Notes under the pieces: generated by a model
Databases searched by the model: none
The model's input: only the letters and a program-made list of their open reading frames with translations
What the model was told of the DNA's origin: nothing
In this document: positions 5,080 through 26,061 of the stretch, piece after piece
How the letters are laid out: every line of letters starts with the position of its first letter
Numbering within the stretch: the first letter of the stretch is position 1
Source: a virus
Direction: 5' to 3' (one strand)
IMG/VR virus record: IMGVR_UViG_3300035205_001601
Coordinates: 1-28,038 of that record
Length of the DNA: 28,038 nucleotides
Position numbers and translations under genes: made by a program

Positions 5080-5155
5080 GCGAATAGTAAAGTGTGGTTG
5101 ATGGTGGAATTTTACTATCCGCTACCCGAGCTCTAGGCTCCTATTAGTTTCTTAT
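5080..5155 (-). ncRNA. Structured leader or small RNA candidate
   Basis: Downstream of a consensus sigma70 promoter (5162-5189) the minus strand forms two stem-loops before any coding start: GAGC/GCTC with a 5-nt loop (5128-5140), and a 12-bp stem with one G-U pair between 5111-5122 and 5080-5091 around a 19-nt loop. The nearest ATG is at 4997, so the RNA is either a long 5' leader of that gene or a separate small RNA. A pyrimidine-rich stretch follows the second stem, but there is no clean U-tract. I do not recognise a known family. Confidence 0.4.
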
Positions 5156-5161
5156 TATTGT

Positions 5162-5189
5162 ATTATACACTATTTTAATGATTTGTCAA
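5162..5189 (-). promoter_or_regulatory. Consensus sigma70 promoter (TTGACA-16-TATAAT)
   Basis: On the minus strand a perfect TTGACA (5184-5189) is followed, after 16 nt, by a perfect TATAAT (5162-5167) preceded by TG. It starts 19 nt beyond the tRNA 3' end, so it would give independent host-polymerase transcription of the structured leader and possibly the 4997 gene. The predicted start is near 5155. Confidence 0.75.
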
Positions 5190-5208: not shown

Positions 5209-5295
5209 TGGCTCCGGGGGGTGGGATCGAACCACCACGTCATTTCAGACACCAGATAAACGGTCTGGCATGTCTACCAATTCCATCACCCCGGA
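5209..5295 (-). tRNA. tRNA with long variable arm and apparent GUU (Asn) anticodon
   Basis: The 87-nt cloverleaf is complete. Its 7-bp acceptor is perfect (TCCGGGG with CCCCGGA), with discriminator G and encoded CCA. The D arm is ATG...CAT with a GG-containing loop. The anticodon stem is CCAGA/TCTGG with loop CCGTTTA. The variable arm has 15 nt with a GTC/GAC stem, and the T arm is GGTGG-TTCGATC-CCACC. The long arm and D loop are Leu/Ser-like, but the loop centre reads GTT, which pairs with Asn codons; no Leu, Ser or Tyr anticodon fits. Position 33 is C instead of the near-universal U. The gene begins 7 nt after the stop of the synthetase-like gene, so both are probably co-transcribed. The amino-acid identity is uncertain. 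Confidence 0.85.
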
Positions 5296-5302
5296 TCATT
5301 TT

Positions 5303-6118
5303 TTATCCAACTACATCAAATGCTCGTATAAGTCGTGTCATTCCAATACCGCCGCCTGTGCGAGGTATGAAATCATAACTTAAAAACTCTTCAAGTTCTG
5401 CTTCTACACGTTCTTTACCAAACTGACCATATAGTAAATCTGCATACATTCCATTACTGATTGTATGGAATTGATCACGCATTTCGTCTGTATCTGAACT
5501 ACGTTCTGCACTACCTATTGTTTCCTGGCCTGCAATTATAACATCTATTTTTGCGGCTGTACCATCACCATTTTGTTTCATATTCCAAAAAGGCGATGTA
5601 TGATTTGGAAAGTTCATTATCATTTGAGCATTACCATATTTTCCGTACATAGCATTTTCTTCTGCATGTGTTAATTCTTCAACGTTGAACTCTATTGCCC
5701 AATCTTCGTAGTTTTTATCTACTATACTACCAAAACCTAAATATGCACATAATTCTATTTCCATTTTATATAAATCATTCATATTGCCAGGCATTTCAAA
5801 TTCAAACATTGGAAATATTAAATCATGTCTACCTTCTATTATATTTGGTTCTTGTCTATAAGATGTGGAGACACAAAAAAAGCCAGGTACTTCTGGCTTT
5901 GATAATAATTCATGTTCTAACCACATTTGGCCTGTTTGTGGAAGCGGCCAAACATTACCGGCGTAATTATAAGTTGAAACTGTTGTTGGATCTTCGCATG
6001 CCGCTAATATGCTTAATCTGTTTTGTGTGTGTACTTCCAAGAAACCTTTTTCTAAAAAAAAGGACCTTAATAGGCCCGTTGCTTCAGTAAATTTTCTTGG
6101 ATCAATTAACTGCGTCAT
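5303..6118 (-). CDS. Class IIb aminoacyl-tRNA synthetase-like enzyme (Asn/Asp type), no anticodon domain
   Basis: 271 residues forming a class II synthetase catalytic core. Motif 1 is near residues 20-35 (EKGFLEVHT). Motif 2 has Arg88-x-Glu90 followed by FPMFEFEM. The amino-acid pocket region GQETIGSAER (197-206) resembles the E-x-x-G-G-S-x-R of AsnRS. Motif 3 is GGGIGMTR with Arg262. The N-terminal OB-fold anticodon-binding domain of AsnRS/AspRS/LysRS is absent, so the protein is much shorter than a normal AsnRS (about 430-470 residues). Two readings are possible: it charges the adjacent tRNA, or, like archaeal AsnRS paralogues lacking the anticodon domain, it makes asparagine. SD AAGGAG precedes the ATG; a CATAAATA box lies 50 nt upstream. 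Confidence 0.85.
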   Translation of the reverse strand: MTQLIDPRKFTEATGLLRSFFLEKGFLEVHTQNRLSILAACEDPTTVSTYNYAGNVWPLPQTGQMWLEHELLSKPEVPGFFCVSTSYRQEPNIIEGRHDLIFPMFEFEMPGNMNDLYKMEIELCAYLGFGSIVDKNYEDWAIEFNVEELTHAEENAMYGKYGNAQMIMNFPNHTSPFWNMKQNGDGTAAKIDVIIAGQETIGSAERSSDTDEMRDQFHTISNGMYADLLYGQFGKERVEAELEEFLSYDFIPRTGGGIGMTRLIRAFDVVG

Positions 6119-6185: not shown

Positions 6186-6749
6186 TTATTTCTGGTGGAT
6201 ACCGTATCCCTTGTGTCCTAATAGAGACATAAACATACTAGGAAGATTATTATCTACTGTTCTTACACTTTCAGGTAGTGCGTCCCAACTAACAAGATGT
6301 GGATGTGTTTTATTTTCTTCGTTTATTTCTTGTCCATATCTCCATCCTGTTGCCATTTTATGATCTACCCAACGATTATGTCTATACTTGGCAAAATCAT
6401 GTGCTAAATGTTCATAATGATCGTCGCCAATTTCTTCATTAACTTCATCTAAATTTGCTTCTAGTTCTAAAGAATTTGTACCTTCAATTAGAAAGTCAAT
6501 ATCTTCGTTTATTAGTTTATTAAGAGCTTCGGCAACATTGTCGCCTTGTTCGGCATCCATATCTTCTATTAAATTAATATCATAACAATGTGCTCCATCC
6601 ATAATGTGATGCACAAGCGAAACATTATCTTCATCTGATTGAACAGTTTCTCCTAAATGATCTTGAATAGTATTATAATATGCTTTAATTAGATCTGTAT
6701 CCAATTCATTCTCGACAACCAATCTAACATGATGTTTAAATGCTTCCAT
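6186..6749 (-). CDS. RyR-domain protein
   Basis: 187 residues. The first about 105 residues are acidic and helical without a recognised family. Residues about 112-185 match the RyR (ryanodine receptor repeat) domain pattern: a Trp in RHNRWVDHK, then GWRYG, then KTHPHLVSWDALPES, then a D-N-N leading to a terminal helix (SLLGHKGYGI). RyR domains occur in animal calcium channels and as isolated domains in bacteria and phages, where their role is unclear; ligand binding has been proposed. No SD is visible. A promoter-like box (GGTAAATA) ends 5 nt before the ATG, suggesting a leaderless message. It is the first gene after a run of small membrane and fibre genes. Confidence 0.8.
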   Translation of the reverse strand: MEAFKHHVRLVVENELDTDLIKAYYNTIQDHLGETVQSDEDNVSLVHHIMDGAHCYDINLIEDMDAEQGDNVAEALNKLINEDIDFLIEGTNSLELEANLDEVNEEIGDDHYEHLAHDFAKYRHNRWVDHKMATGWRYGQEINEENKTHPHLVSWDALPESVRTVDNNLPSMFMSLLGHKGYGIHQK

Positions 6750-7557: not shown

Positions 7558-7977
7558 TTAATAGCCGTCATCGTAAGGATTCTCACCACTAGCACTTCTA
7601 CCATTAGAAGCCATCCAATCAAATATCTTTTCGTGTTGTGTCATAATTTCTCTATCTACTTCTCGTAAAGTTCCAATTTCTTCTCTGAGTTGATCTACTT
7701 TAAAACCTAATACATCAAGACTTGAAATAGCCAAGTCATGTTCTTGAATTTCTTTAATTGCTTGTATATTATTGTGAATAGCAATACCACATTTCTGTGC
7801 CTCTGCCTCTAGTGCTGGAATTGCTGTACCTTGTATACTTGCTAATCGCGTTACTTCGGAGTTTAATCCAGACATCCACCAAACAAAACCACCTACTTGA
7901 ACTAAAAAGGCTACTCCTATTGTTAGTAATAGTCCTTTGTTTATTGATGTATCTTTAGTCATTCTTCTGTCCGGCAT
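7558..7977 (-). CDS. Membrane-anchored coiled-coil protein (spanin-like architecture)
   Basis: 139 residues from the ATG at 7977 (MPDRRMTKD). A second ATG 6 nt upstream (7983) is possible, but the GGAG then sits only 2 nt away, compared with 8 nt for the chosen start. One transmembrane helix lies at about residues 13-35 (GLLLTIGVAFLVQVGGFVWW), followed by a long heptad-rich region (residues about 40-120). This N-anchor plus coiled-coil layout resembles inner-membrane spanins, but no partner outer-membrane lipoprotein is seen, so the role is open. It starts just after an intrinsic terminator, with a GGTAAATA box between. Confidence 0.75.
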   Translation of the reverse strand: MPDRRMTKDTSINKGLLLTIGVAFLVQVGGFVWWMSGLNSEVTRLASIQGTAIPALEAEAQKCGIAIHNNIQAIKEIQEHDLAISSLDVLGFKVDQLREEIGTLREVDREIMTQHEKIFDWMASNGRSASGENPYDDGY

Positions 7978-13331: not shown

Positions 13332-14603
13332 TTAAAACTGATCTTCTTCGGTGGACCCCGATAATGCTGTAGTCGAAGATGATCCGCCCGAAACTGCTTT
13401 AGATACTTCATCAAAGTAACCTGCGCCTACTTCTCGCTGGTGTTTAGTAGCAGTATATCCATCAATTTCAGCCGCAAATTCTTTATCTTGCAGTTCACAG
13501 AACGCAGGCATTCCTACTTTATTGTATTTGGATGCTAGATCAAACATGTTATAATTTAAACTATGGAAGCCAGCAAGTGTAATAAATTGATATTTGTATC
13601 CCATTTCGCCTATTGCATCTTGAAAATTTACAATGTCTTTCTCATCTAAATTTGCTCTCCAATTAAACGAAGGAGAACAATTATATGCTAACATTTGATT
13701 TGGATACTCTTTGCGAATTGTTTCTGCAAACTTTTGTGCTTGATCTAAATTTGGCTTAGATGTTTCCATCCAAAGTAAATCACAATATGGAGCAAAGGCA
13801 AGTCCTCTAGCAACACATCGTTCAAAAGACTGTGCAGGATCTAAACGATAAAAACCTTCCTCTGTTCTATCGTCACTGATAAATGGATGATCGCGTTCGT
13901 CTATATTACTTGTTAATAGTGTAGCACTTTCTGCGTCTGTACGAGCAACAATAACAGTAGGTACTCGCATAACATCTGCCGCAAGTCTTGCCGCGTTTAA
14001 GTTCCTTATATGCTGTTGCACAGGAATTAAAACTTTACCGCCCATATGTCCGCATTTCTTTTCAGATGCTAATTGATCTTCAAAATGGACACCAGCGGCT
14101 CCGGCTTCTATATATGCTTTAGTAATTTCAAATGCATTTAGTGCTCCGCCAAATCCTGCTTCACAGTCTGCTACAATAGGAGCAAACCAAAATGTATCGT
14201 CATCTTCTAATTGCCCTATTTGATCTGAACGCTCAAATGCATTGTTAATCTTTTTTACTAATTCGGGTCCGCTATTAGCGGGGTATAAACTTTGATCTGG
14301 ATACGTAGTTCCTGCTGTGTTATTATCAGCGGCTACTTGCCACCCCGACAGGTATATTGATTGTAATCCAGCTCGTACCATCTGAACCGCCTGATTGCCA
14401 GTAACTGCACCTAATGCTCGCACGAATGGTTCAAAGTTTATATAATCCCATAAGTTCTCTGCACCCATGTGGGCAAGAGTATGTTTTATATCTATGGAAC
14501 TAGATAAACGATAAACATCATTAATTGAATAGTCGCGTTTCACGTTACTAAAACGCTTATGGTGAGTACGGACGAGGCGGGCAAATTCTTCATGTGTGCC
14601 CAT
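13332..14603 (-). CDS. aceA: Isocitrate lyase
   Basis: 423 residues, close to the usual bacterial length (about 430). The signature KKCGH is at 182-186 with catalytic Cys184 in the loop [12 protein letters not shown]. The Mg-binding segment ADCEAGFGG (Asp146, Glu148) and downstream family motifs NCSPSFNW and a C-terminal [13 protein letters not shown] are all intact. It cleaves isocitrate to succinate and glyoxylate, the first step of the glyoxylate shunt. No malate synthase is in the window. A host-derived auxiliary metabolic gene is the likely explanation. SD AGGAG lies before the ATG, and a late-type box 37 nt upstream, so expression appears late. Base composition is not obviously different from neighbours. 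Confidence 0.97.
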
Positions 14604-14648: not shown

Positions 14649-15438
14649 TTAACTCTTTATAAGTAACGCATTTGATGATCTTTTTTAACGAATTTGGAGC
14701 TATCATTTTTAATACAAGAACGTCTTCTATTGCTTTGCAATATATACTACAAACAGACCATTTATATATGTATCTTAATCCGCCACCTCTACGGCCAAAG
14801 CCTGATCCAGGAGTTGTAGGGCCCCACGCTCCTGCACGACTAGGAGTTCCCATATGACTACCATGAGTTGCCATTCCTACTTTATGATGAAAATTTATCC
14901 GTTTAACATTGGGACTATACATATATTCAGTTTTATCTATATTGTCTAAATAGTTTTTAATTTTAACAATGTCTTTTTCTACAAAATCATGATCTCCATA
15001 AAATTCTACTTTCCATCTATACTTTCTGAACCAAAGAGTATCTTTAGCAACTACTTCATAATCTTCTACCATCAAATCACTATGAGTATTATTCATAGGA
15101 CCGTATACGTCTATAACTAAATTTTTAAAAGATTCAACAAAACATAATGTCCAAAAAGGATCCTTAAAATAAAAAGTTGTTGTCCATTCACGCCGCATTT
15201 TAAAATCTTTACCTTTTTGTAACTTATTTTGTCTAAGGTACAATTCGATTTTAAGTATATCTTCATCGGTTAATAAAGGTGCATCTTCTTCCGGTGTTTT
15301 TCTAAAGTGAAGAAATCCATAATTAGACGTATGATGCACTCCAAACAGACGTACTTTATAAAGAAAGTTATTATAATAAGCACGAGGCGCCACGTGGTAT
15401 GTGCAACACTGTTTTAGTTCATCCAGTTTGCTTTGCAT
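14644..15438 (-). CDS. Unknown protein coupled to ClpA
   Basis: 264 residues, not recognised. The N-terminal about 175 residues are mixed alpha/beta with many aromatics and basic residues (FLYKVRLFGVHHTSNYGFLHF, split by charged loops). A Gly-rich linker (about 193-220, GSHMGTPSRAGAW) follows, then a C-terminal domain with two Cys residues (KWSVCSIYCKAIED) and a basic helical tail. Its start lies inside the end of clpA (20-nt overlap), so the two are translationally coupled. That makes a role with ClpA, such as an adaptor or substrate, worth considering, but nothing in the sequence proves it. Confidence 0.75.
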   Translation of the reverse strand: MQSKLDELKQCCTYHVAPRAYYNNFLYKVRLFGVHHTSNYGFLHFRKTPEEDAPLLTDEDILKIELYLRQNKLQKGKDFKMRREWTTTFYFKDPFWTLCFVESFKNLVIDVYGPMNNTHSDLMVEDYEVVAKDTLWFRKYRWKVEFYGDHDFVEKDIVKIKNYLDNIDKTEYMYSPNVKRINFHHKVGMATHGSHMGTPSRAGAWGPTTPGSGFGRRGGGLRYIYKWSVCSIYCKAIEDVLVLKMIAPNSLKKIIKCVTYKELK

Positions 15439-17659
15439 TTACTTTTACTTCATCTGTTTCTAAATCAATGCCTATAACAATTTCACAATCCCGCACATCG
15501 TTATAAACTATTAGTTTACTAATTGGCTTTTTAATTTTTGTATCTATTAACCTTTTCATAGGCCTTGCACCCATAGTAGGAGTAAATCCTTTTTTACATA
15601 GCCAATCTAATAAATCCTTTTGCGGTACTAATGTAATATGTCGTGGTTTTAATAACTCTTCAACTTCATTTAAGAATTTAGTAGTAATTTTTGAAATAAA
15701 CTTTTCGTCTAGTTTATTAAAATTAACAGTAGCATCTAGTCTGTTGCGAAACTCTGGTGCAAAAAACTTTTTAACAGCAACACCTGCGGCATGATCATCT
15801 GTTCCACCTGCAAATCCAATTGCTACTTTTTCACTGTCCGATGCTCCTAAATTAGATGTCATTATTAAGATAATGTTTTTAGTTGATATAGTTTTTCCAT
15901 TACTAGATGTCACAACACCACTATCCATTATTTGTAGTAATATATTCAAGACATCTTGGTGTGCTTTTTCTACTTCATCTAATAGCAATACACAATTAGG
16001 ATTATTTTCTAGTTCATTAATAAGTTTACCACTTCCTGATCCACCATCTTCATATCCCACATAGCCGGGAGGTGATCCTATCAACTTTGCTATTGAATGT
16101 CTTTCTTGATATTCACTCATATCAAAGCGGACAAGTTTTAATGCTAAATTATCAGCAAGTTGTTTTGCTGTTTCTGTTTTACCTACACCAGTAGGTCCTG
16201 TAAATAAAAATGAACCAATTGGCTTTTCAGGATCTTTTAATCCTGCTTGTGATATATGAATAGCATCTGTTAATTTTTCAATTGCTTCATCTTGCCCAAA
16301 TACTTTGTGTTTAATTTTTTCATCTATGTTTATTACAGCACTAGAACTTGTTTCTGTTGTATTAATTATTTCTATAGGAATACGAGTTTGGTGTGCTACT
16401 TCTCGTTTAATGTCTATATCTTCTATATGTGTTTTACGTTCTGTTATAGGTAGTATACGTTGTCTGGCCAATGCACTATCTATTAAATCTAATGCTTTAT
16501 CTGGCAGATATTTATTCATCATATGCTTAACACTTAATTCTACCGCTGTTTTTATCGACTTACGTTCAATAGTAATGCCGTGAAAGTCTTCATAATATGA
16601 AGCCAATCCTTCTATAATTTTAATAGTGTCTTCGGTACTAGGTTGATGTATGTCTAATTTTGTAAAACGTCTCACTAATGCAGAATCTTTTTCAAAGTAC
16701 TTTCTATAATCTTCATGTGTGGTTGCACCTATACAGTGTAGTTTTCCTTTTTCTAATGCAGGCTTTAACATATTAGCAACATCCATACTACCATTACCAC
16801 CAGTACCTGCTCCCATTATCATATGTATTTCGTCAATGAATAAAATACATTTTTCCATGTTTTGTAATATGTCCAATACTGCTTTAAGGCGTTCTTCTAA
16901 ATCACCACGATATTTTGTTCCTGCTAATAAAGCACCAATGTCTAATAGATAAACTGTATTACCTTTTACTGTATCGGGTACTTGGTCTTCGGATATAAGT
17001 TTTGCTAATCCTTCTGCCATTGCAGTTTTACCTACACCTGCTTCACCTACCATTATTACATTATTTTTCTTTCGTCGTGCAAGGACATGAAGTAATTCAT
17101 GTAGTTCCTTTTCTCTTCCTATAATGGGATCTATTTTTCCCTCTGTTGCTTGTGTATTTAAATTTACACAAAATTCTTCTAATACTTTTTCTGCATCCAT
17201 CCCGTCAATGCCAGAAACTTGGTATTCATCAATAAGTTGTTGCTGGATTAATTTAATAATGCTATCACGATCCACTCCATGCATTGCCAAAAAATAATAT
17301 GCATGACTTTGTCGTTCTGCTAATATACTTAAAAATAGATCCTTTGCTTGAATGGCTTGTCTTCTATTAAACAATGCTTGAGTAAATGCCCTATTAAATG
17401 TTCTTTCTAAGGTTGATGTTTTACGAGGCTCAACAGGGCCAGGAACCATAATTTCATTCATATTATTATTAACATGTTCAACTATAGATATACGAACTTC
17501 TTCAGGATTAGGACCAACACTTCCTACTATATGTTTAACTTCATCTTCTTCTAATAGAACAACCAACAGGTGTTCTATTGTTACATATTCGTGATTAAGA
17601 GATTTGGCTAAACCAAATGCTTTACTTATGATATGTTCTACTTTATCGTGATCAGGCAT
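15419..17659 (-). CDS. clpA: ClpA-type AAA+ unfoldase of the Clp protease
   Basis: 746 residues, full length for ClpA. There is an N-domain (residues about 1-150) with the Clp-N pattern, then two AAA+ modules: first Walker A GEAGVGKT (205-212) and Walker B LFIDEIH (273-279); second Walker A GPTGVGKT (488-495) and Walker B LLLDEVE (558-564). There is no long coiled-coil insert, which separates it from ClpB. The IGF tripeptide at 614-616 corresponds to the loop that docks ClpA on ClpP, and a complete ClpP is encoded at 25456-26061. The start overlaps deformylase by 8 nt. ClpA would unfold substrates for ClpP degradation; phage or host targets are unknown. Confidence 0.95.
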   Translation of the reverse strand: MPDHDKVEHIISKAFGLAKSLNHEYVTIEHLLVVLLEEDEVKHIVGSVGPNPEEVRISIVEHVNNNMNEIMVPGPVEPRKTSTLERTFNRAFTQALFNRRQAIQAKDLFLSILAERQSHAYYFLAMHGVDRDSIIKLIQQQLIDEYQVSGIDGMDAEKVLEEFCVNLNTQATEGKIDPIIGREKELHELLHVLARRKKNNVIMVGEAGVGKTAMAEGLAKLISEDQVPDTVKGNTVYLLDIGALLAGTKYRGDLEERLKAVLDILQNMEKCILFIDEIHMIMGAGTGGNGSMDVANMLKPALEKGKLHCIGATTHEDYRKYFEKDSALVRRFTKLDIHQPSTEDTIKIIEGLASYYEDFHGITIERKSIKTAVELSVKHMMNKYLPDKALDLIDSALARQRILPITERKTHIEDIDIKREVAHQTRIPIEIINTTETSSSAVINIDEKIKHKVFGQDEAIEKLTDAIHISQAGLKDPEKPIGSFLFTGPTGVGKTETAKQLADNLALKLVRFDMSEYQERHSIAKLIGSPPGYVGYEDGGSGSGKLINELENNPNCVLLLDEVEKAHQDVLNILLQIMDSGVVTSSNGKTISTKNIILIMTSNLGASDSEKVAIGFAGGTDDHAAGVAVKKFFAPEFRNRLDATVNFNKLDEKFISKITTKFLNEVEELLKPRHITLVPQKDLLDWLCKKGFTPTMGARPMKRLIDTKIKKPISKLIVYNDVRDCEIVIGIDLETDEVKVNAKQTG

Positions 17660-18149
17660 ATACTTTTTTCTTGTTAGTTTTTCTTTGTTTTTGTCTACCC
17701 ATTCGCAATGCTACTGGCTTCGCTTTACTTGTAAACAAAACACCATTTAGGTGATCAAACTCATGCTGAAATATTCGTCCAGATAATCCATTTAACCGTC
17801 GGGTTTTTGTTTTACCATTATAAGTTTGCCATTCTGCTTCTATCCATTCAGGTCTGGAAATACCCATATAAAGATTAGGAAAACTTAAACAACCTTCGGG
17901 AAGTATAATTTCCTTTTCACTATATTCAATTATCTTAGGATTAAAACAAGCAATTATACTAGGTATATCTATAACAAATACCTTAAACTGTACACCTACT
18001 TGTGGTCCTGCTAATCCTATGCCATTTGCTTGTCGCATTGTTTTAGCCATCTTTAAAATAAGTTCTTCTGGATCAACTACATCTTGATCAAAATCAAACG
18101 GTAATGTTTCTGCTTTTAATATTGGGTTGTTTTCGTAAACCAATTTCAT
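17652..18149 (-). CDS. def: Peptide deformylase
   Basis: 165 residues. All three family motifs are present: GIGLAGPQ (43-50, normally GxGLAAPQ), EGCLS (85-89, metal ligand Cys87) and HEFDH (129-133, ligands His129 and His133, catalytic Glu130). It removes the formyl group from nascent N-terminal Met. Phages commonly carry shortened deformylases; this one adds a basic C-terminal tail (about 20 residues, ending in RMGRQKQRKTNKKKVYA). The start has no SD; CATAAATA lies 5 nt upstream. It overlaps clpA by 8 nt, so deformylase and ClpA are in one operon. Confidence 0.95.
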   Translation of the reverse strand: MKLVYENNPILKAETLPFDFDQDVVDPEELILKMAKTMRQANGIGLAGPQVGVQFKVFVIDIPSIIACFNPKIIEYSEKEIILPEGCLSFPNLYMGISRPEWIEAEWQTYNGKTKTRRLNGLSGRIFQHEFDHLNGVLFTSKAKPVALRMGRQKQRKTNKKKVYA

Positions 18150-18154
18150 AGTAA

Positions 18155-18162
18155 TATTTATG
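18155..18162 (-). promoter_or_regulatory. Late promoter box CATAAATA 5 nt before ATG
   Basis: The minus strand reads CATAAATATTACTATG, with 5 nt between box and ATG and no SD. One mismatch from TATAAATA. TAAATATTACTATG recurs before the RyR-domain gene. Confidence 0.6.
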
Positions 18163-18165
18163 GAG

Positions 18166-18987
18166 TTATTTTTTTAATATATCTTTAAGAGGTAATTCTA
18201 AATCTTCTTCAGACAAGATTGGCACTTTAATTTCTACTTGAATAATAAGATCACCCGATCGTTGTCCTCCGCGACCAGGCATACCTTGTTCTGGAATTCG
18301 TAATTTAGTATTAGGTTGAGTTCCTTTATTAATTTTTATACTAAATTCTTGTCCTGATAAACCTGATACAAATTCTTCACATCCTATTGCCGCTTCTAGT
18401 GCATTAACTGTTACTTTAGTAATTAAGTCTCGCCGATTAAATCGTTTAAAACGAGGATGTTCTAGTATTCTTATAATAACATATAAATCTCCTTTGGGCA
18501 ACTCTGAAATGTCATGAGCACCCATACCTGCAAATCGTATTTTATCGCCGTGCTCTACGCCTCGAGGTACATTTAAATTAAGTTGAACAGTTTGATTATT
18601 TCCTAGATTAACATTAAGTTGTCTTTTAATTCCAGTATATACTTCTTGCAGTGATATATCATAATTAATTTGAACATCTCTATTTCTTTGAGGTTGTTGG
18701 TGAAACCCAAATCCTCCTCTAAAAATTTCATGGAGATTGCCAAAAGGATCACCTCTATTCACAAAAGGATTAAATCCTTGTCGCGGATCTACTTGTGATG
18801 CTTCCCATGTTTGTCGTGCGTCCTGATCTTTTATATTTTGATAAGCATCATTGACTTCTTTAAATCTATCATCCGACCCACCATCTCGATCAGGGTGATG
18901 CTTTTGTGCAAGTTTTCTATAAGCAGTTTTTATGTCAGAATCTGTAGCATTTTTATCGACTCCGAGAATTGTCCAGGGGTCACTCAT
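18166..18987 (-). CDS. DnaJ/CbpA-type J-domain co-chaperone
   Basis: 273 residues. A J-domain occupies residues about 3-65, with the HPD motif at 31-33 needed to stimulate Hsp70 ATPase. A short Gly/Phe-containing linker follows (GGFGFHQQ), then C-terminal substrate-binding domains (VPRGVEHGDKIRFAGMGAHD, KGDLYVII). There is no Cys-x2-Cys-x-Gly-x-Gly zinc region, so it is CbpA-like (class B), not class A DnaJ. It probably works with host DnaK, since no DnaK is visible here. A strong sigma70 promoter directly abuts the start, suggesting earlier expression than the structural genes. It ends 16 nt before deformylase. Confidence 0.92.
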   Translation of the reverse strand: MSDPWTILGVDKNATDSDIKTAYRKLAQKHHPDRDGGSDDRFKEVNDAYQNIKDQDARQTWEASQVDPRQGFNPFVNRGDPFGNLHEIFRGGFGFHQQPQRNRDVQINYDISLQEVYTGIKRQLNVNLGNNQTVQLNLNVPRGVEHGDKIRFAGMGAHDISELPKGDLYVIIRILEHPRFKRFNRRDLITKVTVNALEAAIGCEEFVSGLSGQEFSIKINKGTQPNTKLRIPEQGMPGRGGQRSGDLIIQVEIKVPILSEEDLELPLKDILKK

Positions 18988-24890: not shown

Positions 24891-25475
24891 TTATTTTGCT
24901 AATTTGCGGTAACAGTTTTGTATACCGACTACTTGCCTCCAACAATCCATTAATGCATGATGCTTACTTGCTTCGGGCATTTCCGGATCTGCTAAAGCAT
25001 ATATTGTTCTACAATCTCGTATTTCCCAAAACTTCCACGGATTGCCTCTACTTAATTTTCTATTATAATCCTCTATTATCATTATGTCAAATATAGAACC
25101 ATTTGACCAAAATGCTTTTGCACCAAAACACCATTTATGAAAATCTGTTAAAACAGTTTCTATTGAATGTCTATTGTCTTGTGCAAATGCTTCTTCTCTA
25201 ATTATGTCGTCTTGTTCTGCCCACCAATCAATTGTGTGGTCATCTATTACTTGACCTAAGTCGACACAACTTTCTAAATCAATACGCCTATAAAAACTAT
25301 GTTTACTATTAAATATTCGTTCTTCTGTTTCTTTCCTAGCATCATTACAAGGATCAAATTTCATTGCCGCGAACGTTAAAATTACTGCATTAGGTTTAGT
25401 TGACAATGTTTCCAAGTCAACCATAACATGCAATTCGCCTGTTCGGTGCGTAGTATTAGTCACCAGGAAGTTCAC
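24891..25475 (-). CDS. DEDD-type 3'-5' exonuclease (DexA-like)
   Basis: 194 residues from a GTG at 25475, or 177 from the ATG at 25424 (MVDLETL). The first gives a 20-nt overlap with clpP, and the second starts at the catalytic strand, so the start is uncertain. The catalytic pattern is that of DEDD exonucleases: VMVDLETL with Asp and Glu, a middle [10 protein letters not shown] with Asp, and [11 protein letters not shown] with His and Asp. The T4 protein DexA has the same motif order. It probably degrades single-stranded nucleic acid, but the substrate cannot be told. Confidence 0.85.
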
Positions 25476-26061
25476 GACTTTCCACTATTTTATCTGCTAA
25501 TCCATAATTAACAGATTCTTGTGCTGTTAAAAAATTATCTCTGTCCATATCATTAATTAATTCTTGATACAATTTACCTTTCGTATTATGCTTTATATAA
25601 ATTTGAGTTAATTCTTCTTTTACTCTGAGTAATTCTTTTGTACGAATTTCAACATCTGATGCTTGTCCACTTGCTCCGCCCATTGGTTGATGTATCATGT
25701 GTCTACTATGCGGTAATATCCAACGTTTATCAGGAGCGCCTGCTTGTGCTAACAGAGACCCCATCGATGCCGCATGGCCCATAACAATGGTACATATATC
25801 TGGTGCGATAAATTGCATTGTATCGTATATTGCCATTCCTGCTGTAACAGTTCCCCCAGGAGAATTTATATACATAAAAATGTCTTTTTCTGCATTCTCA
25901 CTTTCAAGAAACAATAATTGACTCACTGTTAAACTTGCACAATGATCTTCTATTTCATTGTCTAACATTATAATACGGTCTTTAAGCAGTCGACTATATA
26001 TATCGTACGATCGCTCTCCTTTGTCTGTTTGTTCTATTACAATTGGTACTAGATTTGCCAT
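25456..26061 (-). CDS. clpP: ClpP serine protease
   Basis: 201 residues, full length, starting [12 protein letters not shown], like the mature bacterial ClpP N-terminus. The catalytic triad is intact by alignment in memory with E. coli: Ser99 in GHAASMG, His124 in MIHQP, Asp175 in DRDNF. It forms the tetradecameric peptidase chamber that partners ClpA or ClpX; ClpA is encoded at 15419-17659 and keeps an IGF docking loop. It has no propeptide. No SD is present: a sigma70 promoter abuts the start, so a leaderless transcript is likely. Its stop overlaps the exonuclease start region. Confidence 0.96.

Follow-up and report, generated by a model that had tools for sequence, protein, structure and literature searches.

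A class II tRNA-Asn with an unusual anticodon loop and an adjacent synthetase core as a candidate asparagine module of marine phages

The tRNA and the enzyme gene at the locus

We analyzed a 28,038-nt stretch of viral DNA (IMG/VR record IMGVR_UViG_3300035205_001601, positions 1 to 28,038; hereafter 'the window'), in which ARAGORN identified a single tRNA, a tRNA-Asn(gtt) on the minus strand (5209-5295). An open reading frame (ORF) for an enzyme resembling the catalytic core of asparaginyl-tRNA synthetase (AsnRS) lies on the same strand, with its stop codon 7 nt upstream of the tRNA. We suggest that the two constitute a self-contained, two-gene asparagine module of the phage, in which a private Asn-tRNA is served by its own AsnRS, and we place the probability of this reading at roughly 0.55.

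An earlier note, made from the sequence alone, had described the tRNA as a class II body carrying an Asn anticodon and C33, with perfectly paired stems. Our parsing agrees on the body, the anticodon and the stems: the acceptor (7/7), D (3/3), anticodon (5/5) and T (5/5) pairs are complete, the D arm is of the Leu type, and the variable region of 15 nt includes a 3-bp stem, so that the tRNA falls into class II (a variable arm of at least 10 nt with its own stem), as do its 161 relatives described below (11-38 nt). CCA is encoded, and the acceptor end, U1-A72 with G73, is of the Asn type. The anticodon loop reads C32 C33 G34 U35 U36 U37 A38, in which U37 is at least as odd as C33; the earlier note mentioned neither U37 nor the acceptor end nor the strand. 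With this loop, CCGUUUA, the molecule differs from ordinary tRNA-Asn, which has a class I body, the loop CUGUUAA and U36A37A38. It also differs from tRNA-Leu in anticodon and discriminator, given that all 161 relatives have GUU or GUC and G73 instead of a Leu anticodon and A73, and from allo-tRNAs, which have a 12-bp acceptor branch (8/4 or 9/3; PMC7609411) where this tRNA has 7 + 5 pairs. Two further results are neutral for the tRNA call or speak against it: Rfam at gathering thresholds gave no match in the window, and the thermodynamic fold was only modestly stable (z = -2.05, equalled by 8 of 200 shuffles), with a minimum other than the cloverleaf.

Table 1. Features of the tRNA and its partner gene in the window
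Feature	Position	Strand	Basis
Class II tRNA-Asn(GUU), CCA included	5209..5295	-	ARAGORN; parsed stems and loop; relatives
Acceptor stem, 5' side, starting with U1	5289..5295	-	Parsed stems; relatives
D arm, Leu type	5270..5286	-	Parsed stems; comparison with tRNA-Leu
Anticodon loop CCGUUUA (positions 32-38)	5257..5263	-	Sequence; variation among relatives
C33	5262..5262	-	Linked tRNAs: U 127, C 18, A 14, G 2 (n = 161)
Anticodon GUU	5259..5261	-	159 of 161 linked tRNAs
U37	5258..5258	-	Pyrimidine in 141 of 161 linked tRNAs against 2 of 188 other tRNAs
Variable region, 15 nt with its own stem (relatives 11-38 nt)	5237..5251	-	Parsed; covariation
Acceptor stem, 3' side, with A72 and discriminator G73	5212..5219	-	Parsed stems; relatives
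Partner enzyme gene (271-residue AsnRS-like catalytic core)	5303..6118	-	PF00152; predicted structure; residues

Linkage and spread of the pair

One IMG/VR scan yielded at least 598 relatives encoding the enzyme. Five scans of viral sequences, one of genomes and two phage records together gave at least 417 loci with the enzyme, many of them overlapping. In 326 of the 417 loci of this redundant set, a class II tRNA follows the enzyme at a distance of no more than 400 nt. From these we obtained at least 161 distinct linked tRNAs; counts out of 161 refer to those recovered. Nearly all of them are from marine viruses, and they start at a median of 10 nt past the last codon of the enzyme (n = 161). 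We also conducted a reverse test with two RNA patterns designed from the linked tRNAs, which gave 200 stretches among the matches listed. Among these, the enzyme is found directly 5' of the tRNA in all 156 stretches whose upstream part measures 900 nt or more and in all 20 in which it measures 300-900 nt; of those with less than 300 nt, 5 have the enzyme and 19 do not. This test overlaps many contigs of the first set, and it speaks for tRNAs of the pattern type, not for all tRNAs. Any one neighbouring gene family appeared in at most 7 of the 43 non-redundant linked contexts, and the cassette therefore consists of the enzyme and the tRNA only. We regard it as almost certain that the two form a functional unit. 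Among the possibilities raised in the earlier note, that of a substrate made unusual for a partner enzyme is the best supported, by the gene 7 nt upstream and by the conservation of the pair.

In the enzyme tree, built from 152 proteins with less than 90% identity to each other, nearly all linked tRNAs fall within one clade of marine viruses (115 rows; SH-aLRT 96); counted on the tree, a linked tRNA accompanies 102 of its rows and is missing from 7, and the other 6 stop too soon to show whether one is there. The sole linked tRNA outside this clade is a class I tRNA-Asn lying 207 nt behind the deepest homologue (L115); it is an ordinary tRNA-Asn(GUU) (6033-6105) and the only tRNA of that 10.8-kb locus. 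Several large phages with an unlinked enzyme have class I tRNA-Asn inside tRNA arrays. We also looked for a distant partner tRNA of the unlinked enzymes with a tRNA model (R1), and its best matches were mostly ordinary tRNA-Leu and class I tRNA-Asn, a result that does not prove the absence of such a partner. A full-length AsnRS scoring over the cut-off is also present in 9 of the 13 cellular genomes examined, so the core is a paralogue there. The cultured Prochlorococcus phages P-SSM2, P-SSM5 and P-SSM7 carry the enzyme-tRNA pair, which is therefore open to experimental testing.

Some individual loci deserve mention. In the P-SSM2 record (AY939844.2, L083), the tRNA feature coordinates look shifted: ARAGORN places a tRNA-Asn directly behind the 'tRNA ligase' gene, at 5801-5888, and the record has the feature at 7813-7898, about 2 kb further on. 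At another locus (L084), just two tRNA acceptor halves, back to back and with GCCA, follow the enzyme ORF (around 5865-5885), a remnant of a deletion or an assembly artefact. In a third (L387), the linked tRNA behind the ORF (around 2300) retains the Leu-type D arm and GUU, and its variable region is down to 6 nt. A phage tRNA-Asp(GUC) with U37 occurs at 2203-2276 of L439, on the contig of L307, which also has an unlinked copy of the enzyme.

Conservation of the linked tRNAs and the amino acid site of the enzyme

The anticodon is GUU in 159 of the 161 linked tRNAs and GUC in 2; G73 is present in all of them and U1-A72 in 160. Position 33 is occupied by all four bases (Table 1), and position 37 is U in 137, A in 17, C in 4 and G in 3. 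Mapped on the enzyme tree (161 rows), the fewest changes required are 23 at position 32, 24 at 33, none at 34 and 35, 2 at 36, 20 at 37 and 25 at 38, and none at G73 or U1. As a control we used 188 distinct other tRNAs found at the loci by ARAGORN, after removal by hand of two linked ones from 190; they have U33 in 184 and a purine at 37 in 186, although ARAGORN may itself favour U33, so that the control is not perfectly neutral. All eight distinct ordinary tRNA-Asn among them are class I with CUGUUAA. U36A37A38 is kept in 17 of the linked tRNAs and UAAU in 11. The 32/38 pairs are C.A in 113, U.C in 35, C.C in 11 and U.A in 2, and since C.A and U.C are near-isosteric, the loop still resembles an anticodon loop. 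The D-loop GG, the T loop and U8 are retained, and CCA, whose encoding is a habit of host tRNAs, is encoded in 112 of the 161, a trait that changed just twice on the tree. Covariation in 48 linked tRNAs supports all five helices: 24 of 26 pairs changed on both sides, a number reached in 0 of 500 shuffles, and the variable-arm stem (helix 4), which unlike helices 1, 2, 3 and 5 had no part in picking the sequences, is paired in 74.3% of cells.

The earlier note had called C33 exceptional and had taken U33 in relatives as a sign of sequencing error or decay. U33 is indeed found in 127 of 161, yet C, A and G recur at this position with at least 24 changes on the tree and with intact stems, and error or decay is therefore rejected; C33 is a real state, although not the conserved feature. 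The nearest relatives of the window among the matches listed (L001 and L002, 97% protein identity) both have A33, so position 33 changes fast while GUU stays. We also rejected a four-base anticodon, GUUU, on the ground that position 37 varies. Taken together, the comparison shows that the anticodon is selected and that the flanking positions are relaxed.

The main rival to decoding is a role outside the ribosome, in which the charged tRNA would serve as a donor for a transferase or as an RNA signal in regulation, with no need for U33 or a purine at 37. The lack of U33 in 34 of 161, the pyrimidine 37 in 141 and an enzyme without an anticodon-binding domain fit such a role. However, the absence of change at 34 and 35, with 2 changes at 36 against 20-25 at their neighbours, is what codon reading predicts, the D-loop GG, T loop and U8 are conserved, and the neighbourhoods contain no conserved transferase-like gene. 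We consider this role unlikely; the non-translational mimic proposed in the earlier note thus retains some standing, with the invariance of GUU arguing against it. Alternatively, the tRNA might be an ordinary supplier of codons whose loop drifts because it adds little, its synthetase being required only because no host enzyme can charge the Leu body. Phage tRNAs are common, the variation at 33 and 37 resembles relaxation, and U33 is still the majority state; against this, the stems, G73, U1-A72 and GUU are undecayed over many changes, and U37 is a majority state rather than scattered noise. This makes drift a rather improbable account. A decoy for anticodon nucleases, which should retain the U-A-A motif and needs no synthetase, is the explanation that we credit least.

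The body of the tRNA points to a Leu origin. The D arm GTGAAATTGGTAGACACG is identical in seven linked tRNAs and in the tRNA-Leu(UAG) of two phage loci (L042 and L075), as would befit the switched identity considered in the earlier note. The variable region consists of 1 nt, the stem and 2 nt in 145 of 161, a spacing characteristic of Leu and not of Ser, and with this and the D arm the body is that of a tRNA-Leu. Applied to 11 cellular genomes, model R1 scored a tRNA-Leu highest in 10 of them and a tRNA-Ser in 1. Asn identity rests on the anticodon and G73, U1-A72 with G73 makes an Asn-type acceptor end, and in Escherichia coli tRNA-Ser G73 counts among the features that bar LeuRS (PMC9976931). 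The simplest reading of these sequence features is that the tRNA is a Leu tRNA with switched identity.

Next, we examined the enzyme. It matches the class II synthetase family for Asp, Lys and Asn (PF00152) with 56.6 bits (Pfam cut-off 25), and R88, E90 and R262 of motifs 2 and 3 are conserved in 50 of 50 aligned enzymes, as in a class IIb core. The structure predicted from the 50-sequence alignment is confident (mean pLDDT 92.2), and its top structural match is the catalytic domain of human AsnRS (Z 27.5; root-mean-square deviation 2.3 over 246 residues). The entire protein aligns to this catalytic domain only, and the enzyme lacks an anticodon-binding domain. It is not a canonical asnS product, scoring 24.6 bits against a cut-off of 342.6 in the NCBIfam model, and it also lies far below the cut-off of the model for aspartyl-tRNA synthetase (AspRS). 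The Prochlorococcus-phage 'tRNA ligase' is thus an aminoacyl-tRNA synthetase core and not an RNA-repair enzyme.

To judge the amino acid site, we compared 50 enzymes of the family in one alignment with AsnRS from a bacterium (L468), AspRS from an archaeon (L117) and AS-AR (L461, taken as such from its match to 1nnh and 3p8t). AsnRS grips the Asn amide by Glu and Arg, and AspRS grips the carboxylate by Lys and Arg, as stated in the accessible part of PMC7387524. In all 50 family members the acidic position is Glu (E106), as in AsnRS, where AspRS and AS-AR have Asp; the position of the AspRS Lys is Leu (L67); and the Arg (R206) is retained. In AS-AR, the automatic alignment shows no Lys in the AspRS Lys column, and by eye a Lys lies two columns further. 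Given this combination of L67, E106 and R206, the site appears to be of the Asn type. All 277 distinct proteins show the three-motif pattern of the family, one of them in the variant TNQMHLE, and the invariant Asn-179 is encoded by AAU or AAC in all 203 linked and all 74 unlinked proteins; therefore, Asn codons still mean Asn.

These results bear on two further alternatives. One is recoding or mistranslation, in which the tRNA, loaded with Asp, Ser or some unusual residue, would change how certain Asn codons are read. To judge from PMC7609411, G73 on a class II body could be attractive to SerRS, and U1-A72 would suit amidation of Asp-tRNA, as part of PMC9976931 indicates. The GUC anticodon in 2 of 161 could be read in the same way, but the active-site residues are of the Asn type and the invariant Asn codons remain Asn codons. 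The variable-arm spacing, being that of Leu in 145 of 161, likewise does not favour Ser, and we judge recoding to be very unlikely. The other is that the core is an asparagine synthetase that, as archaeal AS-AR does, converts Asp to free Asn, with the tRNA as a separate passenger. The similar size and the match of the fold to AS-AR (3rex, Z 24.3) are compatible with this, as are the bacterial homologues without a linked tRNA in genomes of which 9 of 13 have a real AsnRS. Nevertheless, AS-AR has the AspRS-type Asp where all 50 aligned family members have Glu, the NCBIfam AS-A model gives 22.6 bits against a cut-off of 389, and the enzyme accompanied the tRNA in all 156 informative stretches among the matches listed in the reverse test, leaving a free-standing synthetase of Asn with hardly any credit.

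The surroundings of the cassette were also inspected. A sigma-70-like promoter (TTGACA ... TATAAT; 5162-5189, minus strand) and, in the leader from the tRNA to the next gene, an inverted repeat (ATAGTAAA/TTTACTAT; 5084-5119) were read from the sequence directly behind the tRNA and further along, respectively. Beside the synthetase gene lies a gene for a RyR-domain protein (6186-6749, minus strand; PF02026, 51.2 bits), and at 13332-14603 on the minus strand there is a gene of the isocitrate lyase family (PF00463, 341 bits). The window has an unusual load of protein-quality genes, encoding a Clp-type ATPase, peptide deformylase, DnaJ and ClpP (15419-18987 and 25456-26061, minus strand).

Proposed role and comparison with known systems

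We propose the following scheme for the asparagine module. With no anticodon-binding domain, the core would be expected to recognize its substrate by the acceptor end, possibly also by the long variable arm, rather than by the anticodon, and in this way it would charge the linked tRNA with Asn. If the enzyme does not read the anticodon, GUU must be kept for something else, most simply the decoding of AAU and AAC. The Asn-tRNA would then decode these codons during infection, and the reading of Asn codons in phage messages would no longer depend on host tRNA-Asn. Charging of the linked tRNA by the enzyme seems highly probable to us and Asn as its amino acid quite probable, whereas use of the tRNA in decoding is only somewhat favoured.

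The loop may have a further meaning. The t6A modification has U36A37A38 as its universal determinant, and for the bacterial enzyme C33 acts as an anti-determinant (PMC9654439). In the portion of PMC12409363 available, AriB of PARIS cuts tRNA-Asn(GUU), its targets have U36-A-A-U39 in common, and T5 variants of AriB target tRNAs rescue infection. The loss of U36-A37-A38 and of U33 might, less surely, remove the phage tRNA from host loop readers such as the t6A synthase, PARIS-type anticodon nucleases and host AsnRS or AspRS, and possession of its own synthetase would let the tRNA afford the loss of these marks. Evasion of host factors as the force that shaped the loop remains a tentative idea. 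More doubtful still is a virus-owned orthogonal channel of aminoacylation, in which an anticodon-blind synthetase and a Leu-to-Asn tRNA released from the rules at 33 and 37 would act as one unit in ocean phages; in its boldest form, such a channel may stand apart from host translation control or deliver its amino acid outside ordinary decoding.

Several observations weigh against the proposed module. C, A or G at 33 and a pyrimidine at 37 are expected to harm decoding, which is a real cost, and the ordinary loop CUGUUAA persists in 16 of 161 linked tRNAs. Of the 109 rows of the marine clade that could be tested, 7 have the enzyme but no linked tRNA, and its homologues from Aureispira, Flavobacteriia, Patescibacteria, Chlamydia and freshwater phages have none either; therefore, the enzyme can exist alone. 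In addition, AspRS, AS-AR, GenX and LysRS follow closely behind AsnRS in the structural comparison (Z 23-26), and because all class IIb enzymes are this close (Z 23-27.5), the fold alone cannot choose between Asn, Asp and Lys.

If the module is real, phages run a charging step of their own besides importing tRNAs. The pair would offer a natural experiment on how far translation depends on positions 33 and 37, and with it the idea that host anticodon nucleases mould phage tRNAs could be tested concretely. Orthogonal translation could profit from so compact a synthetase, which may recognize a long variable arm, and the rule-breaking loop hints at a private channel of protein making, maybe one that host defences do not recognise.

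We found no paper on the enzyme-tRNA pair in the open-access literature, where there are reports of single synthetase genes in phages (PMC5628999 and PMC6375957). The nearest known item is T4-GC 194, the 'tRNA ligase' of P-SSM2, P-SSM7 and P-SSM5, which belongs to the same enzyme family (62-66% identity) and has the same kind of tRNA directly behind it; the two are annotated as separate items, and the consulted part of PMC3037559 lists the cyanophage gene merely as 'tRNA ligase'. AsnRS shares the catalytic fold and the Asn-type residues, but the phage enzyme lacks an anticodon-binding domain and scores far under the asnS cut-off. Archaeal AS-AR and EpmA/GenX, free-standing class IIb cores, are alike in fold and core-only architecture; AS-AR differs in its AspRS-type site, and to our knowledge neither travels with a tRNA. 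What appears to be new here is a synthetase-tRNA pair that is viral, minimal and Leu-bodied, with an anticodon loop outside the usual rules. Allo-tRNAs and selC* tRNA-Cys are likewise long-armed with anticodons foreign to their bodies, and selC* tRNA-Cys has a dedicated synthetase like the phage pair, as described in part of PMC7609411; they differ in their longer acceptor branches and Ser or Cys identity, whereas the phage tRNA has 7/5 pairs, a Leu body, Asn identity and a viral home. Finally, phage tRNAs that evade nucleases (T5 against PARIS; mycobacteriophages) have a changed anticodon stem-loop and a kept anticodon, as here, but the accessible portions of these accounts describe no private synthetase or change of class, whereas the pair described here varies positions 33, 37 and 38.
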